Shown here in pieces: positions 1,837 through 62,474 of a stretch of 64,000 nt of DNA (the first letter of the stretch is position 1; every line of letters starts with the position of its first letter). The position numbers and the translations under genes were made by a program. A model generated the notes under the pieces. That model worked only from the letters and a program-made list of their open reading frames with translations, searched no databases and was not told where the DNA came from. The stretch is taken from IMG/VR virus record IMGVR_UViG_3300047508_000144, positions 1 to 64,000 of that record; one strand, given 5' to 3'. Source of the DNA: a virus.

Positions 1837-1971
1837 TCAGTTACTCCTGTAGGTTGGACAGCCGGGTAACGGCACGATGGGACAATTCGCCTGCCCGTGT
1901 CCCCTGTCGTAGCTGATAGCCGCTAGCGCGAGGATCAGAACGGCAACAGCAACGCTGATAATCGTCCTCAT
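1837..1971 (-). CDS. small protein with N-terminal membrane segment and NCPIVP tail
   Basis: 44 residues: hydrophobic N-terminus MRTIISVAVAVLILALAAI, then a polar tail with NCPIVPLPGCP. The ATG overlaps the TGA of the VWA gene by one base, so translation is coupled. The same layout and tail motif occur in the gene at 9950-10102, so the two are paralogues. Two cysteines in the tail could form a disulphide outside the membrane (inference). Function unknown. Confidence 0.7.
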   Translation of the reverse strand: MRTIISVAVAVLILALAAISYDRGHGQANCPIVPLPGCPTYRSN

Positions 1972-3170
1972 CACTGTACCTCGATCCGTACTGTGCCAGC
2001 CCAATCCGGACACGGCGCATCAGTCGTGCACCCGATGATCAACGGGAACGGCGTCTCGATCTCGGGCCATGGCGTGTACCCGTCAGTGAGAAGCAGCACC
2101 ACCTCCGGCGAGTACTGCTCCGCGAACACCAACGGCTTGCGCATGTCGGTGCCGCCGCCGCCCTTAGGATGCAGCACCACCTCCGCGCCGTCCTCGAAGA
2201 CGTCGATGTTCTGCATGTCCTTGTCATCGGCCCACACCACGCGCACAGTCATCGGCTTGATGACGGTGACGATGTGGTTGACGGCGACCGCGACACGCTC
2301 GAACACTGACTTGGAGAACATCGAACCCGACGAGTCGGCAACGATGGTCATCTCATCCATGCCGTTGCTCTTATGCGATGGCAGGATTGCGTCGTGGTAC
2401 CGGCGGTTACGCCGGGACCAGTTCTCGTCCTGGTTCACACAAGCTGTCATGTAGTCTATGAGAACCTGCTCCCATGGCACCGGGTCCTCGTAGGTCCCGG
2501 CGACGATCGCTTCAAGTTCGCCCGGCATGACGCCGTGCTGCTTGGCAATGGCGGTTGCCCGCGCGATCACCTTGCTGATCGCGTGGTCGATCGCTGCAGC
2601 CTGCTCAGCTGTGGCAACAGGCACCGGACGCAGATCGCCGCCCAGACCGCCTTGCTCAGGCGCAGGCTTTGTCCCCGGCTGGGGCTGAGGCTGTCCCTGT
2701 CCCTGACCTTGGCCCTGACCCGGAGGGCCCTTGCCTTTGCCTTTGCCTCCCTGCTGCTCCTTCTCTCGCAGCGCATAGATTTGCTCCGCGGTCATGCCGT
2801 CATACGTGGGGTCGATCAGTGCGTACTGCCAAATGCTGAAGCCCAGCTTCTTGAGCATGATGTTGATGGCGTAGTCGCACGCCTTGTTCCATCTGCCCGG
2901 ATCACGGGAGCCACGGCGCAGCCCGTGCTTGAGCAGGATGTGCATCAGCTCGTGGATGATCACGAACTTGGCAGTCGGTACGTCCAGCCCTTCGATGAAC
3001 TCCGGGTTGTACCCGATCACGACCATGTCGGTCCAAGCGGTGTCGCATGTTGGGTCTTCGACGAATCTGGTTTGCAGCAACGCTGACGCAAAGAACATCA
3101 GCGCCTTGACCTTGACGAGACCGGCACGTGCCGTCTCGAAAGTAGAAAGTTGTTTTTGATGTCGTGCCAT
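1971..3170 (-). CDS. VWA-like / zincin-type metallopeptidase-like protein (DUF2201-like)
   Basis: 399 residues in two parts. Residues 1-130 carry a zinc-binding HELMH motif (H73, E74, H77) typical of the DUF2201 metallopeptidase-like domain. After a low-complexity Gly/Gln/Pro linker (about 138-180), residues 270-399 form a VWA-like domain with a MIDAS signature DSSGS (279-283), GGGGTD (337-342) and LTDG (361-364). Such proteins pair with MoxR ATPases, and one lies upstream (4252-5334). Ribosome site GGAGG lies 8 bases before the ATG. A 21-bp palindrome sits 17 bases upstream of the start. Substrate unknown; assembly, remodelling or proteolysis is inference. Confidence 0.85.
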   Translation of the reverse strand: MARHQKQLSTFETARAGLVKVKALMFFASALLQTRFVEDPTCDTAWTDMVVIGYNPEFIEGLDVPTAKFVIIHELMHILLKHGLRRGSRDPGRWNKACDYAINIMLKKLGFSIWQYALIDPTYDGMTAEQIYALREKEQQGGKGKGKGPPGQGQGQGQGQPQPQPGTKPAPEQGGLGGDLRPVPVATAEQAAAIDHAISKVIARATAIAKQHGVMPGELEAIVAGTYEDPVPWEQVLIDYMTACVNQDENWSRRNRRYHDAILPSHKSNGMDEMTIVADSSGSMFSKSVFERVAVAVNHIVTVIKPMTVRVVWADDKDMQNIDVFEDGAEVVLHPKGGGGTDMRKPLVFAEQYSPEVVLLLTDGYTPWPEIETPFPLIIGCTTDAPCPDWAGTVRIEVQ

Positions 3171-4251: not shown

Positions 4252-5334
4252 TCAGTTAGAGGTGTAGACTTCGCGATACCGCTTCACGTAGTCCATGTAC
4301 GCATCGGCATCGAACAACGTCGCATCGCGCGCCGTCGCCAGCTGCCACGCCATGACGACGAACTCCGCGGTGAAGCGCTTCAGGTAGGTGTGAAGCGCAT
4401 CCACGTTGCCCGTTGTCATCTTCTCGGACACCATCATGGCCGTTGCGTACTTGATCGAGAGTTCTTCGGGTACGGGATACGTATCCGGGTCCTTCTTGAT
4501 CCTGTCGATGTTCGGCAGGCTCTGCCAGACATCGACGTAAGCCAGAAACTGCACCGCCGGCCCTTCGCCGATGGCGCCGATCATGGCAGCCTCCTTGATC
4601 ACCGGGTCCAGCCGCTTGTCCTGCCACAGTTCGGCGGCGGAGAACCATGTGCGTGGCGTGGCCACGATGGCTTGCGTCTTCTTCGGATCGTAGGTGTTCA
4701 CGAGATCGGCGCAGAAATTCCAGAACGCCATGAACACCGATGGCACGCCTTGGCTCTGCGCGTAGACGCAGAAGTCCTCCAGCATATTGATTGCTTCGAA
4801 GTGAAGCAGACGGTTGTTGAGGGGCATGGGTAGCTTCTTCGCCAATGCCTGATCGTCCAGAAGATTGCCAGCGAGCAGCATCCGGACGTTCGGCTTCAAG
4901 ACATGCTCACCAACGCAACGATTCAACACGAGTTGCTGCATGACGGCGAACACATCATTCTTGGCGTCGGGTGCTTCGTCGAAGAACACCACGATCAACT
5001 TGTCATCTGGAAAACTATCATTCCCGATGAACGGCATCGTGCCCGGCGGGTACCAGATCGCGGAGCCGGTCTTCTTGTCGGCCTGCGGGAAGCCGCGCAA
5101 GTCCACGCTGTCGTACTGAGACAGACGGATGTCGACCAAGAGTGTGCCCGTGTAGGGACAGTCCTTGCCCAGCAGCTCTTTCAGGGCTTTGGGGTTGTCA
5201 AGCTCGTCAACAGCCTGCTCGACGCCTTGGCTCTTACCGATACCAAACCGACCTCTAATGATGATCGGCTTGTCGAGACGAACCACAACTTCTTTGACCG
5301 TGGTCTTGATCTGGGAAATAGAAAGCTTCTTCAT
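4252..5334 (-). CDS. MoxR-type AAA+ ATPase
   Basis: 360 residues. Walker A GRFGIGKS (28-35), Walker B VVFFDEAPD (D119, E120) and a sensor-1-like LLAGNLLDD (around 154-160) are all visible, as expected for a MoxR-family AAA+ ATPase. These ATPases work with VWA-domain partners as chaperone-like remodelling machines. Here the VWA protein and a DUF3150-like protein follow downstream on the same strand. Only small zinc-finger and helical genes lie between. Palindrome copy 2 sits 23 bases upstream of the start, so the module may be controlled through it. Confidence 0.85.
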   Translation of the reverse strand: MKKLSISQIKTTVKEVVVRLDKPIIIRGRFGIGKSQGVEQAVDELDNPKALKELLGKDCPYTGTLLVDIRLSQYDSVDLRGFPQADKKTGSAIWYPPGTMPFIGNDSFPDDKLIVVFFDEAPDAKNDVFAVMQQLVLNRCVGEHVLKPNVRMLLAGNLLDDQALAKKLPMPLNNRLLHFEAINMLEDFCVYAQSQGVPSVFMAFWNFCADLVNTYDPKKTQAIVATPRTWFSAAELWQDKRLDPVIKEAAMIGAIGEGPAVQFLAYVDVWQSLPNIDRIKKDPDTYPVPEELSIKYATAMMVSEKMTTGNVDALHTYLKRFTAEFVVMAWQLATARDATLFDADAYMDYVKRYREVYTSN

Positions 5335-9178: not shown

Positions 9179-9371
9179 ATCCCTTCTCCGGTGTGCACGG
9201 GATCATCGGCGAGCAAAGCCCGTGGACGAACCAGCACCGCCCGCAGAGCAGCGTACCGATCTTTTCATCAAAGAACGGCTGTGGATGCTCGCAGTCGTAC
9301 GGACAGTGCGCGTGGCTGCAACCATGCAAGGCGTACCAATCCCTCACGCGGTCAGGTGCTTGATCGCCCAC
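9156..9371 (-). CDS. Cys/His-rich zinc-binding protein, 71 aa
   Basis: GTG at 9371 with GAGGAAG upstream. Motifs HGCSHAHCPYDCEHPQPF and LLCGRCWFVHGLC give many Cys and His ligands for one or two zinc ions. Similar small zinc proteins cluster in this early region. Overlaps the Acb2-like gene by 28 bases. Function unknown. Confidence 0.6.
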   Translation of the reverse strand: MGDQAPDRVRDWYALHGCSHAHCPYDCEHPQPFFDEKIGTLLCGRCWFVHGLCSPMIPCTPEKGCERTAAS

Positions 9372-9580
9372 ATCGTGGCTTCCTCGATCCGCGTTTGCGC
9401 GAGGCTGATCTCCCGGGATTTGCCAAGCTCGCCGACCAGCTTCCAGAACTCAAGCCCCTTGTCCTTGATCTCCCGCATCTGCTCCTTCTCGATCGGCGAA
9501 AGCACGCGGTACTCGTGCCGCATCACGTTGTTGACGACGCGCTCGTCCGACGTCGAGTCCACTGTCTTGCGAGAAGTCAT
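9344..9580 (-). CDS. Acb2/Tad1-like protein, candidate anti-CBASS sponge
   Basis: Internal start at 9580 (MTSRKTVDSTSDERVVNNVM) with CGGAGAG at good distance, 78 residues. The segment MRHEYRVLSPIEKEQMREIK, then SREISLAQTRIEEATMWAIK, matches my memory of the Acb2/Tad1 hairpin family, where Acb2 proteins bind cyclic nucleotides and block CBASS signalling. Tyr24 and Lys39 are 15 residues apart, the same spacing I recall for the ligand-binding Tyr11 and Lys26 of Acb2. Many family members are untested. The frame is open upstream, so a fused 169-residue form may also exist. Confidence 0.65.
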   Translation of the reverse strand: MTSRKTVDSTSDERVVNNVMRHEYRVLSPIEKEQMREIKDKGLEFWKLVGELGKSREISLAQTRIEEATMWAIKHLTA

Positions 9581-9853
9581 GGTTACTCTCCGATCTAAGC
9601 TTGTATCGGGATAATGCTTGATGTGTTCGAGGGTACCGTGTGGCCAGCTCTCGTTACCCTTGAGCCCATCCCATCGTATGACGATGCAGGCGCCGCCGGG
9701 GTGCGGCGTGTGCATCACAGTACCGCGCCGCGCCGCCCAGTCGGTAGTCACCTTCCGTCGTAATACACAATAGCCACGCAGTGCTTGCTGCGCCGCAGCA
9801 GCCGTCAGCCGCACGCGGTCGCCTCGCCTGAACCTGGTCAGGCACCGTGGCAT
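9344..9853 (-). CDS. SH3-like N-terminal domain in frame with the Acb2-like gene
   Basis: The frame from ATG 9853 runs 169 residues without a stop through the Acb2-like start at 9580. Residues 1-91 look like a small SH3/KOW-like domain (RRGDRVRLTAAAAQQALRG, then RRGTVMHTP and a WDG-containing strand, ending SWPHGTLEHIK). It may be a true fusion, or two genes whose separating stop codon is lost. The ribosome site at 9853 is weak, that at 9580 good, so both products are possible. Confidence 0.55.
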   Translation of the reverse strand: MPRCLTRFRRGDRVRLTAAAAQQALRGYCVLRRKVTTDWAARRGTVMHTPHPGGACIVIRWDGLKGNESWPHGTLEHIKHYPDTSLDRRVTMTSRKTVDSTSDERVVNNVMRHEYRVLSPIEKEQMREIKDKGLEFWKLVGELGKSREISLAQTRIEEATMWAIKHLTA

Positions 9854-14922: not shown

Positions 14923-14958
14923 GGTCTGTGCTCCCTCTAAGGAACAGATTGTGGTCAG

Positions 14959-14999
14959 GCAAGCCACGAGATGACGCTCTCGTGGCTTGCCGCATTTTT
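14959..14999 (+). terminator. long hairpin, rightward terminator / leftward leader stem
   Basis: A perfect 13-bp stem GCAAGCCACGAGA / TCTCGTGGCTTGC with a 6-base loop is followed on the plus strand by CGCATTTTT, an intrinsic terminator. No rightward gene precedes it. For leftward transcripts from 14998-15026 it would be a 5' leader stem ahead of the gene at 14922. Confidence 0.7.
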
Positions 15000-15205: not shown

Positions 15206-15421
15206 ATGGATCAGGATTACGCCGCGACCAACGCGGCGGAGCGCGCGGCGTTCGCCAATGGCCAGCAATCGAGGCAAGGCGAGGTCGATGCTTTACTCGC
15301 TGCGCTATGTACGGTGCGCGCGATCCTCAACAGCAACGACAGATACAAGGCGCGCAGTGCACGGCTCTACCTTCAGGAGGTGTTACATGATGTAACACCT
15401 TCTAATTGCGGTACGAGCTAA
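15206..15421 (+). CDS. small helical protein, 71 aa
   Basis: MDQDYAATNAAERAAFANGQ with TGGAG upstream; helical to residue 50 (VDALLAALCTVRAILN). The end of the frame reads through palindrome copy 6 (VLHDVTPS). Probably translated with the preceding membrane protein. No family. Confidence 0.6.
   Translation: MDQDYAATNAAERAAFANGQQSRQGEVDALLAALCTVRAILNSNDRYKARSARLYLQEVLHDVTPSNCGTS
15379..15399. promoter_or_regulatory. 21-bp palindrome, copy 6
   Basis: Perfect copy (centre TGA) inside the 3' end of the 71-aa rightward frame, 60 bases before the iteron array. Confidence 0.85.
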
Positions 15422-15492
15422 GTCATTGATTGAGCGCATTGTTCCGTTGATTGAAAAGTCTGTGCCGTGAAAAGTTTAATGATATCAACAGT

Positions 15493-15517
15493 TTGTGCCG
15501 TTGTGCCGTTGTGCCGT
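15493..15517 (+). repeat. tandem 8-bp iterons, left arm
   Basis: Three head-to-tail TTGTGCCG units plus a final T. A single related unit lies at 15461. All point the same way. Confidence 0.85.
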
Positions 15518-15685
15518 GCAAAACAGCACCCCCCCCTAATCTTGATTCTGCCACAATTACTCTACATCCTATATCTTATATTATATTTTATTTACACGTA
15601 GTTAAATACAGTACTTGGCAGGGCTCACGGCTCAACCCGTTTGGATACTCAAAAAAGGGGGGGGGCCTGTTTTGGAGGGGCACAG

Positions 15686-15777
15686 ACGGCACAAAGGCAC
15701 ATGGTATTGAAATCATTGAACTTTTCACGGCACAAGGATTCCCAAACCACGGCACATGGCGCCTTTCAACGGCACAA
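15686..15777 (-). repeat. inverted iterons, right arm
   Basis: Four units ACGGCACAA/T at 15686-15694, 15727-15735, 15749-15757 and 15769-15777. Steps are 41, 22 and 20 bases, roughly whole turns of DNA, so one face would be bound. Confidence 0.8.
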
Positions 15778-15845: not shown

Positions 15846-15854
15846 TGCGAGATA

Positions 15855-15875
15855 GGTGTTACATTATGTAACACC
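15855..15875. promoter_or_regulatory. 21-bp palindrome, copy 7
   Basis: Both arms perfect, centre TTA. It lies in non-coding DNA between the iteron array and the terminators of the 16075-16728 gene. Confidence 0.85.
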
Positions 15876-15992
15876 TATTGGTATGGTGTACTGTAAACTT
15901 CCTTGTATTTAGATACCGTCGTTTTGCGTCACGTGCTAGCGCATTGGATTAGGTGACGGCGCGCCGCTCGCCCCTTGGCATAGGCGAGACGC

Positions 15993-16023
15993 AAAAAACC
16001 CCGCGCGGCTTTCGCCGCGCGAG
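15993..16023 (-). terminator. second tandem terminator of the 16075-16728 gene
   Basis: Leftward CGCGCGGC-GAAA-GCCGCGCG followed by GGGGTTTTTTGCG: GC stem with GAAA loop and U-tract. Confidence 0.9.
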
Positions 16024-16027
16024 GCAT

Positions 16028-16057
16028 AAAAAAACCCCGCGGCTTTCGCCGCGGGGC
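16028..16057 (-). terminator. first tandem terminator of the 16075-16728 gene
   Basis: Leftward CCCCGCGGC-GAAA-GCCGCGGGG followed by seven T: 9-bp GC stem, GAAA tetraloop, U-tract. It is nearly the same sequence as the second, suggesting duplication. Confidence 0.95.
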
Positions 16058-16074: not shown

Positions 16075-16728
16075 TTAGCGCGGAGCGTTGGCCAGCCAAT
16101 CGCGCCACTCGGAACCACGATCGCCGACAAGCTTCGCGGCATACTTTTTCTGGATTGCCTTCATCGACAGGACAAGGCGATTCAGCGCGTCGAAAGCGTC
16201 GACGTCGTCCGGAGGATTGATAATCTCATCGGCCTTGATCAAGCGCTGCTCGTGCGCTTCCTTCTCCGCCTTGACTTGCTCCGCCTTAACGGCAGTCTCC
16301 GCCTTGGCCTCTGTGATCCCGGCCATACGCTTTGCCCGGGAGACTAGGACGCGCACTGCGGTCATAACCCGCTCTTGCTCCGCCGTACGGTTGTCGTCCG
16401 TGTTCTTGGCAGGGTTAAGCTGATTGTACTTTTTCAAGCCAATCACTCGCCTTGCCTCATCCCGGGCATAGCTAAGCTTCCGGACGAAATAGCCTTCCGT
16501 CAAAGCTTGGACCATGTCGCCGATAACCTTGTCGTTCGCCTTGAACGTGGTGAAGGCGACGGTCAAGGCGCCGTCCTGCCCTGCCATGGTCTGCCCATAC
16601 TCAAAGGCAATGTCGATAGCTTGGGCTGGCGTCATGGCCGTTGAACCATTGGCCTTAGCCTTAGCCTTGCCATTGGCCTTGGACACAACGGGAGCAACGG
16701 GAGTCACGATCGATTGAACGTTAGTCAT
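16075..16728 (-). CDS. isolated, strongly driven protein of unknown function, 217 aa
   Basis: Start at 16728 (MTNVQSIVTPVAPVVSKANG); upstream GTGACTGACACC resembles the shared start motif without a clear AGGAG. The N-terminal 35 residues are Ala/Lys-rich and flexible; the core is helical (MTPAQAIDIAFEYGQTMAGQ; KLSYARDEARRVIGLKKYNQ); the C-terminal part is a charged helix. It has its own promoter (16788-16817), palindrome copy 8 and two terminators, and borders the candidate origin. An abundant DNA-binding, initiator or regulator role fits this setting but is inference; no family recognised. Confidence 0.75.
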   Translation of the reverse strand: MTNVQSIVTPVAPVVSKANGKAKAKANGSTAMTPAQAIDIAFEYGQTMAGQDGALTVAFTTFKANDKVIGDMVQALTEGYFVRKLSYARDEARRVIGLKKYNQLNPAKNTDDNRTAEQERVMTAVRVLVSRAKRMAGITEAKAETAVKAEQVKAEKEAHEQRLIKADEIINPPDDVDAFDALNRLVLSMKAIQKKYAAKLVGDRGSEWRDWLANAPR

Positions 16729-16787
16729 GGTGTCAGTCACTTTCTGCCCTATGGGGCGTTGCACTGGCATCCCGTGCCAGCAAACAA

Positions 16788-16823: not shown

Positions 16824-16844
16824 GGTATTACATGATGTAACACC
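16824..16844. promoter_or_regulatory. 21-bp palindrome, copy 8
   Basis: One change (GGTATTACA / TGTAACACC, centre TGA on the plus strand). Directly upstream of the promoter at 16788-16817. The DNA from 16845 to 17089 shows no gene; it contains an A/T-rich run (about 17015-17060) but nothing else I can support. Confidence 0.8.
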
Positions 16845-61905: not shown

Positions 61906-62474
61906 GTGAGCTTGATCCCAAGTTTGCGGACGATCTGGTTGGCGCGGATTGCCTGGTTCTCGGCATCAGCAAGCGCAGTATGCAGCGTGCCCAGATACTG
62001 TCCCTCCTCAATGGTCAACATGCTGCGCAACGTGCGGAAGCAGCGATCATGCCTAAAGCTCCAGGGCGTATCACGTGAAGCTATCTCGTACGCCTGTCTC
62101 AGGAGTACGTTGTCGAAGCCGGCGCCGTTGCCCCAGATACGCACGTTGGTGATCTGGAGACCTTGCACGATGATCTGGGGCAGTTCGTGAAGCCAGCCAC
62201 TGAACCCGTCCAGCGCCACGAGCGTCGTGACCTTGGGCATGTGCCACCACTCTCTACGTGCTTCGTCGCGCTCTCTGTCCATCCACCACATCAGGGTCTC
62301 GGCATCGACGCGCAGCCCGGTATTAGTCGGGGCGATCGCAACCTCGAACCGATCTGTGATGATCTTGTCTTGCTGTTCAGTGTAGGGATTGAACACACAA
62401 GCCCCGATCGAAATGATGGTGGAATAGGGAGAGGTCCCCCAGGTCTCCAGATCAAGCATTACATGATGTAACAT
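61902..62474 (-). CDS. DEDDh 3'-5' exonuclease (ExoVIII-like)
   Basis: Start at 62474 (MLHHVMLDLETWGTSPYSTI): AAGGGAAAATAAA precedes the ATG, which lies inside palindrome copy 10. D8 and E10 are motif I; WGNGAGFDN and TLHTALADAENQA give the further acidic and histidine residues. GLRVDAETLMWWM resembles ExoVIII-type proteins. Likely processes DNA ends with the neighbouring nucleases. Confidence 0.85.
   Translation of the reverse strand: MLHHVMLDLETWGTSPYSTIISIGACVFNPYTEQQDKIITDRFEVAIAPTNTGLRVDAETLMWWMDRERDEARREWWHMPKVTTLVALDGFSGWLHELPQIIVQGLQITNVRIWGNGAGFDNVLLRQAYEIASRDTPWSFRHDRCFRTLRSMLTIEEGQYLGTLHTALADAENQAIRANQIVRKLGIKLT

Follow-up and report, generated by a model that had tools for sequence, protein, structure and literature searches.

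The replication origins of phage-inducible chromosomal islands (PICI) and Staphylococcus aureus pathogenicity islands (SaPI) always consist of two iteron sets that flank an AT-rich region (PMC6092414). A paper from 2018 ascribed this two-sided layout to small phage satellites only. Islands such as SaPIbov1 and EcCICFT073 code for a self-loading Rep helicase, which is sometimes fused to a primase, and the Rep of SaPIbov1 is related to Cch, a DUF927 helicase (PMC6092414, PMC7581432). SaPI Reps recognize their iteron origins via the C-terminal domain, and the helicase presumably binds in the form of two hexamers (PMC7581432). Here we describe an array of this layout in a phage from a family of uncultured soil phages. 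It is located at positions 15434-15777 of a window that comprises 64,000 of the 65,750 bases of the IMG/VR virus record IMGVR_UViG_3300047508_000144 (phage genome of 65.75 kb). Its sequence suggests that it is probably a replication origin built like those of SaPI and PICI, being bidirectional and self-melting.

Other described origins share parts of the arrangement. Plasmid pRN1 has an essential stem-loop of 100 nt that is conserved in structure, not in sequence, together with a protein composed of an archaeo-eukaryotic primase (AEP), a superfamily 3 (SF3) helicase and a winged helix; an origin of this type was also proposed for the Bordetella phages BIP-1/BPP-1 (PMC4234260). In OriS and OriL of herpes simplex virus, inverted initiator boxes face each other across an AT-rich spacer, which is opened by a viral helicase (PMC12543377). 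The origin of phage lambda combines iterons with an AT-rich melting region (PMC5043065). In oriV of plasmid RSF1010, an AEP primase acts at two single-strand sites (ssiA/ssiB), with bidirectional strand displacement (PMC6925257, PMC4234260).

The phage array differs from all of these. Unlike the PICI and SaPI origins, it is found in full-size phages (~65 kb) and not in a helper-dependent satellite: a terminase, a DNA polymerase and the structural genes are all carried by the genome itself. It is not positioned directly 3' of rep, its entire arms mirror each other beyond the iterons, and it is flanked by palindromes that occur genome-wide. The stem-loop of pRN1 is a single one and directly downstream of the gene, whereas the 100-nt arms of the phage array carry iterons, enclose an AT-rich core of 118 nt and are far from the gene. 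Herpes simplex virus has an unrelated superfamily 2 initiator, a short spacer and few boxes. The lambda iterons are one-sided and reside within the O gene, with host DnaB being loaded, while the phage array is two-sided and intergenic. RSF1010 uses separate RepA, RepB' and RepC proteins, short ssi sites and one-sided iterons.

Layout of the array and its recurrence in relatives

An initial annotation of the window, made from the sequence alone, had described a mirrored iteron array at 15461-15777 and proposed it as a candidate phage origin. All of the parts that it named were located (Table 1). These are the 16-mer TGTGCCGTGAAAAGTT at 15461 (+ strand) with its exact inverted partner at 15719-15734, the three tandem 8-bp units TTGTGCCG on the left, the four ACGGCACAA/T units on the right (with steps of 41, 22 and 20), the C8 and G9 runs, which adjoin mirrored copies of CAAAACAG/CTGTTTTG and are the only C or G runs of at least 8 in the window, and the AT-rich DNA in between. 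The array was, however, drawn too small. When its two sides are aligned with each other, the element proves to extend further, with 20 mismatches and 3 gaps in 104 aligned positions (81% matching, score 42). The element also includes mirrored copies of a AATGATATCA-like block, which had been overlooked, and it does not stand alone, having 23-bp palindromes (AGGTGTTACATNATGTAACACCT) on both flanks. The window contains eight copies of TGTGCCGT, every one of them within the 317 bp described initially: four on the + strand to the left and four on the - strand to the right, all facing the core. The AT-richest 60 nt of the entire 65,750-bp record fall inside this core (78% AT, at 15554). The mirror repeat is far above chance. 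When the region was shuffled 300 times with dinucleotides preserved, the highest score was 13, and the next-best inverted repeat anywhere in the window scores 14.5, compared to 42 for the array.

For the analysis of relatives, 40 loci were fetched from viral contigs using the neighbor protein and the large terminase, contig L102 was added by a profile search, and the element was detected by an inverted-repeat scan. Related phages had been suggested initially as a place to look for the same array, and the architecture indeed occurs in at least seven further phage contigs, at an equivalent or compatible place, with arm matches of 26-109 nt and a core of ~108-173 nt (Table 2). The four best of ~10,500 positions scanned in relatives and other contigs are arrays of the same kind. 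A scan of viral contigs with a core motif resulted in 13 matches, and arms were present only in the relatives already known. The gene for a 218-aa protein adjoins the element in G001, G013, G003, G002 and L102. This gene was not found in G012 and G005, where the element is upstream of the terminase (for G005, provided that its contig is circular).

In six phages, the TGTGC[CA] sites of the array face the core in 40 of 40 cases (19 on the left, + strand; 21 on the right, - strand). In L102, this holds for 8 of 10 sites, the exceptions being due to an internal palindrome within its arms. The array of G005 uses TGTGTC instead, in the same mirrored sense. To the right of that array (L077, 480-640), there are near-repeats of ATCAATGACTTAGGTTTCAGCTTG that were not seen in the other phages. 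C/G runs are present at the place equivalent to C8 in G001, G013 and, in shortened form, G003; G002 nearly lacks them. A reading of C8 and G9 as part of an R-loop similar to that at mitochondrial conserved sequence blocks was dropped for this reason.

A cultured phage, Pseudomonas phage Rollin (OR577172.1), has an arrangement that, as judged from its sequence, parallels the array. Of its nine TATGCAA motifs, eight cluster in 414 nt around the AT-richest 60 nt, near record positions 260-680, and three of these eight follow each other in steps of 9 bp. The iterons are mirrored around this stretch, but matching arms are absent. Near the iterons and the AT-richest stretch (record positions 1-680), there is also a repeated palindrome of Rollin's own, AAAAGGTAGCAAGTTACTACCTTTT. 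A search for a mirrored repeat in Rhizobium phage RHph_TM27A found none.

Table 1. Features of the array and associated loci (positions refer to the window)
Feature	Position	Strand	Remarks
Small ORF (open reading frame), 71 aa	15206..15421	+	heads toward the array from the left
Left flanking palindrome AGGTGTTACATGATGTAACACCT	15378..15400	.	
Left arm	15434..15537	+	imperfect inverted repeat, 104 nt; iterons TGTGCCG face the core; self-alignment of the two sides
Outer iteron TGTGCCGT	15461..15468	+	inside the 16-mer TGTGCCGTGAAAAGTT
Three tandem iterons TTGTGCCG	15493..15517	+	8-bp steps (15493, 15501, 15509)
C8 run	15529..15536	+	inner end of left arm
AT-rich core	15538..15655	.	putative melting region, 118 nt; 65% AT overall, 78% in best 60 nt
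Right arm	15656..15762	-	imperfect inverted repeat; self-alignment of the two sides
G9 run	15657..15665	+	inner end of right arm
Iteron ACGGCACAA	15686..15694	-	TTGTGCCGT on - strand
Iteron ACGGCACAA	15727..15735	-	overlaps exact partner (15719-15734) of the left 16-mer
Iteron ACGGCACAT	15749..15757	-	
Iteron ACGGCACAA	15769..15777	-	
Right flanking palindrome AGGTGTTACATTATGTAACACCT	15854..15876	.	
Two tandem intrinsic terminators	15998..16057	-	stop leftward transcription ahead of the array
Neighbor gene, 218 aa	16075..16731	-	no known family; kept beside the array in relatives
Candidate initiator, 970 aa	53674..56586	-	archaeo-eukaryotic primase (residues ~40-200) fused to DUF927 helicase; possible winged-helix C-terminus

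Table 2. Related contigs that carry the element
Contig	Arms	Core (nt)	Score	Remarks
G001/L013			20.5	closest relative; degenerate left arm
G013/L038	109-nt arms	130	79	
G003/L020	104-nt arms	127	59	
G002/L017	98-nt arms	131	83	
G012/L035	46-nt match	115	33.5	
G005	26-nt match	108	23.5	near contig start
L102	50-nt match	173	35	

The candidate initiator and the proposed mode of initiation

The phage codes for a candidate initiator of the Cch/SaPIbov1 Rep (DUF927) kind. AEP signatures can be read from the sequence of this 970-aa protein (FFFDID, SGYGIHVYW, VLRVPGTFNYK), which also matches the PrimPol AEP domain, though weakly. The fusion of an archaeo-eukaryotic primase to a DUF927 helicase is encoded by all seven near-complete genomes of the group, and DUF927 scores above the Pfam cut-off in 9 of 9 genomes tested (the window and eight relatives, including Rollin and RHph_TM27A). 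The Rollin protein shows 27% sequence identity to that from the window. A profile built from seven relatives matches the solved Cch helicase from SCCmec (structure 5dgk, E=4e-4), and there is a weak match to the NCBIfam model SCCmet_Cch1. The C-terminus was modeled with a pLDDT (predicted local distance difference test) of 64. Among its top PDB fold matches (Foldseek) are Cch and SaPIbov1 Rep, the E-values being weak (0.03-0.2). Such fold matches mean little on their own. The kinship with SaPIbov1 Rep itself is taken from them and is weakly indicated. The full-length model was too poor for use (pLDDT 41), and a scan of prokaryote genomes for the primase-helicase found no relatives and hence gave no host or provirus context. 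In addition, the phage codes for a family A DNA polymerase and an SNF2-type helicase.

Because the array has the PICI layout and a helicase of that kind is encoded, we infer the identity of the initiator, its binding, core melting, ring loading, initiation and bidirectionality as follows. The primase-helicase would bind the TTGTGCCG iterons in each arm, probably by its C-terminal domain. Once both arms, which face each other across the core, are occupied, the AT-rich DNA would melt. Each side could then receive one helicase ring, the two rings being on opposite strands. Primers would be laid by the fused primase, and two forks would depart toward both arms.

This assignment is supported by what the sequence shows, namely the layout and conservation of the array, the fact that its arms evolve in pairs (see below) and the initiator-type gene content. 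Among the functions considered initially, which included a partition, terminus or control site, that of an origin is best supported: the layout recurs, the place is intergenic between convergent genes, the core has the AT-richest stretch, and a primase-DUF927 helicase is encoded. That no named phage element is laid out in this way, as stated initially, is nearly correct as far as phages are concerned, but satellites are known to have such a layout.

Several observations weigh against an origin of this type. The initiator gene is ~25-38 kb away from the array, while PICI origins are immediately 3' of rep. The DNA-binding domain of the candidate initiator is weakly supported, given the model and fold matches described above. 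In 5 of 5 genomes rotated to the array, the cumulative GC skew reaches its minimum ~11 kb further right, and the skew at four-fold sites shows no switch at the array; as an origin marker, GC skew is thus uninformative to mildly negative. Finally, most of the left-right match is lost in G001, the closest relative, although its iterons remain, and perfect symmetry is therefore not essential.

If the array is an origin, full-size phages having a fused primase-DUF927 helicase at such a site link the replicons of satellites and phages. This bears on the source of the replication module of the satellites. It also marks a candidate origin for a phage group that has been encountered nearly exclusively in metagenomes.

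Paired evolution of the arms and alternative explanations

The two arms of a phage match each other with local-alignment scores of 23-83, G001 being the exception (18-20). Between phages, the arms of G002, G003, G012 and G005 score only 6-14, which is background, and similarity above background is restricted to the close trio of the window, G001 and G013. In G002 and G003, left and right arm score 83 and 59, respectively, but the same arms reach only 8-13 when compared to those of the window. Thus, four phages have arms without detectable similarity to the arms of the window, yet their own two arms match. A four-way alignment of the arms from the window and G013 has nine columns that changed in parallel in both arms and nine that changed in one sequence; there is no column with a retained arm-specific difference. 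From these sequences, it appears that each phage rewrote both mirror halves together. Either the arms convert each other, or their pairing or symmetry is under selection.

It is tempting to speculate that an active process, which could be gene conversion between the arms or template switching at the origin, holds the arms identical, or that selection for their pairing does so. The origin would then be recognized as a mirror structure, its letters changing wholesale while initiation continues. We consider this possible, although the odds are rather against it. If true, a large phage family has a fast-evolving, structure-conserved origin; to our knowledge, such an origin has not been described in phages. 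The paired rewriting in any case provides a natural data set with which to ask whether the letters or the symmetry of such an origin are recognized.

A related alternative is that the initiator reads a fold-back of the arms (hairpin or cruciform) instead of, or besides, the iteron letters, as proposed for pRN1. As in pRN1, structure is kept while letters change between relatives, except for G001 with its decayed left arm. The arms pair within a phage while differing between phages, the parallel changes relative to G013 left no arm-specific difference, and the element folds with z = -11.4 as single-stranded DNA. However, a loop of 108-173 nt makes cruciform extrusion in duplex DNA unlikely, and the iteron core TGTGC[CA] is still recognizable in most phages. 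Also, the left-right match outside the iterons is mostly gone in G001, and Rollin has mirrored iterons without matching arms. A structure-read origin is thus unlikely, but it is the alternative that survives best.

With much lower probability, the array is a packaging (pac/cos) or genome-end site that is read by terminase. The first rightward ORF (17126) is found ~1.3 kb and the gene for the large terminase 5 kb downstream of the array, and some short contigs (L009, L021) end in or near the array. Near-complete contigs, however, run through it, and the circle of G002 is closed at another place, through an end overlap of 263 nt. Moreover, we know of no pac site having an AT-rich core between mirrored iterons.

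A non-coding RNA or a regulatory hairpin transcribed across the array is hardly to be expected, even though a long hairpin is predicted (when folded as DNA) and phage intergenic RNAs exist. The arm mismatches do not lean toward G-U pairs in a + strand RNA (9 of 63) and do so at best unclearly in a - strand RNA (20 of 63, which is about the yield of transitions); this lack of preference speaks against an RNA. A sigma-70-like promoter was not detected within the array, which is bounded by terminators on its right side. Rfam gave a single match across it, to a eukaryotic miRNA model, with 33 bits compared to a gathering score of 230.

Equally improbable is a partition (parS-like) or transcription-control site, for which the repeated binding sites and the operator-type palindromes on the flanks could be quoted. 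No ParA/ParB-like protein was detected among the non-structural proteins scanned against Pfam, which are a subset of the proteins. The palindromes are separate from the array and occur genome-wide. Both adjoining genes (15206..15421 on the + strand and 16075-16731 on the - strand) head toward the array, so that the site is convergent, not divergent. The array, being intergenic between convergent genes, is therefore the promoter region for neither of them.

An invertible or mobile segment, as might be suspected from a unique core between inverted repeats, is contradicted by the conserved place of the element and by the core orientation, which is constant among the phages that can be aligned (scores of 41-104 in the forward and 7-9 in the reverse direction), and may be dismissed.

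Surroundings of the array and other observations

The array is close to the switch between a leftward half, which contains the replication genes, and a rightward structural half. The palindromes that flank it are found on both sides in G001, G013 and G002 but only on one side in G003 and L102. They represent a palindrome of 21-23 bp, GGTGTTACATNATGTAACACC, which is repeated across the half of the genome that is transcribed leftward, for the most part close to gene boundaries. Beyond the flanks of the array, there are ~8 copies (3188, 5358, 7491, 10461, 13497, 16824, 58214 and a degenerate one at 62455). The copy at 16824 is just upstream of a promoter on the - strand (TTGACA-18-TATTGT). The palindrome is retained in relatives, where its variants are still symmetric (for example, GGTGTCACATTATGTGACACC in L102). 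It is likely a phage-wide operator or activator site.

A hairpin follows a conserved GATTGTGGTCAG block at 14940-14991 (+ strand), and five of its base pairs are changed on both sides among relatives. It is also present in L102. A match to the Rfam model SymR is weak and under the cut-off. The hairpin is possibly a small RNA, a leader or a terminator.

The protein encoded at 9344-9853 (- strand) has a Pfam match to the Acb2/Tad1 hairpin domain at its C-terminus (E=2e-15) and an additional N-terminal part. By this match, the protein is a candidate sponge against cyclic-nucleotide anti-phage signaling (CBASS/Thoeris).

A DUF2201/VWA-like protein of the metallopeptidase type adjoins a phage-family ATPase (1971-3170 and 4252-5334, both on the - strand), and this pair resembles MoxR/VWA modules.
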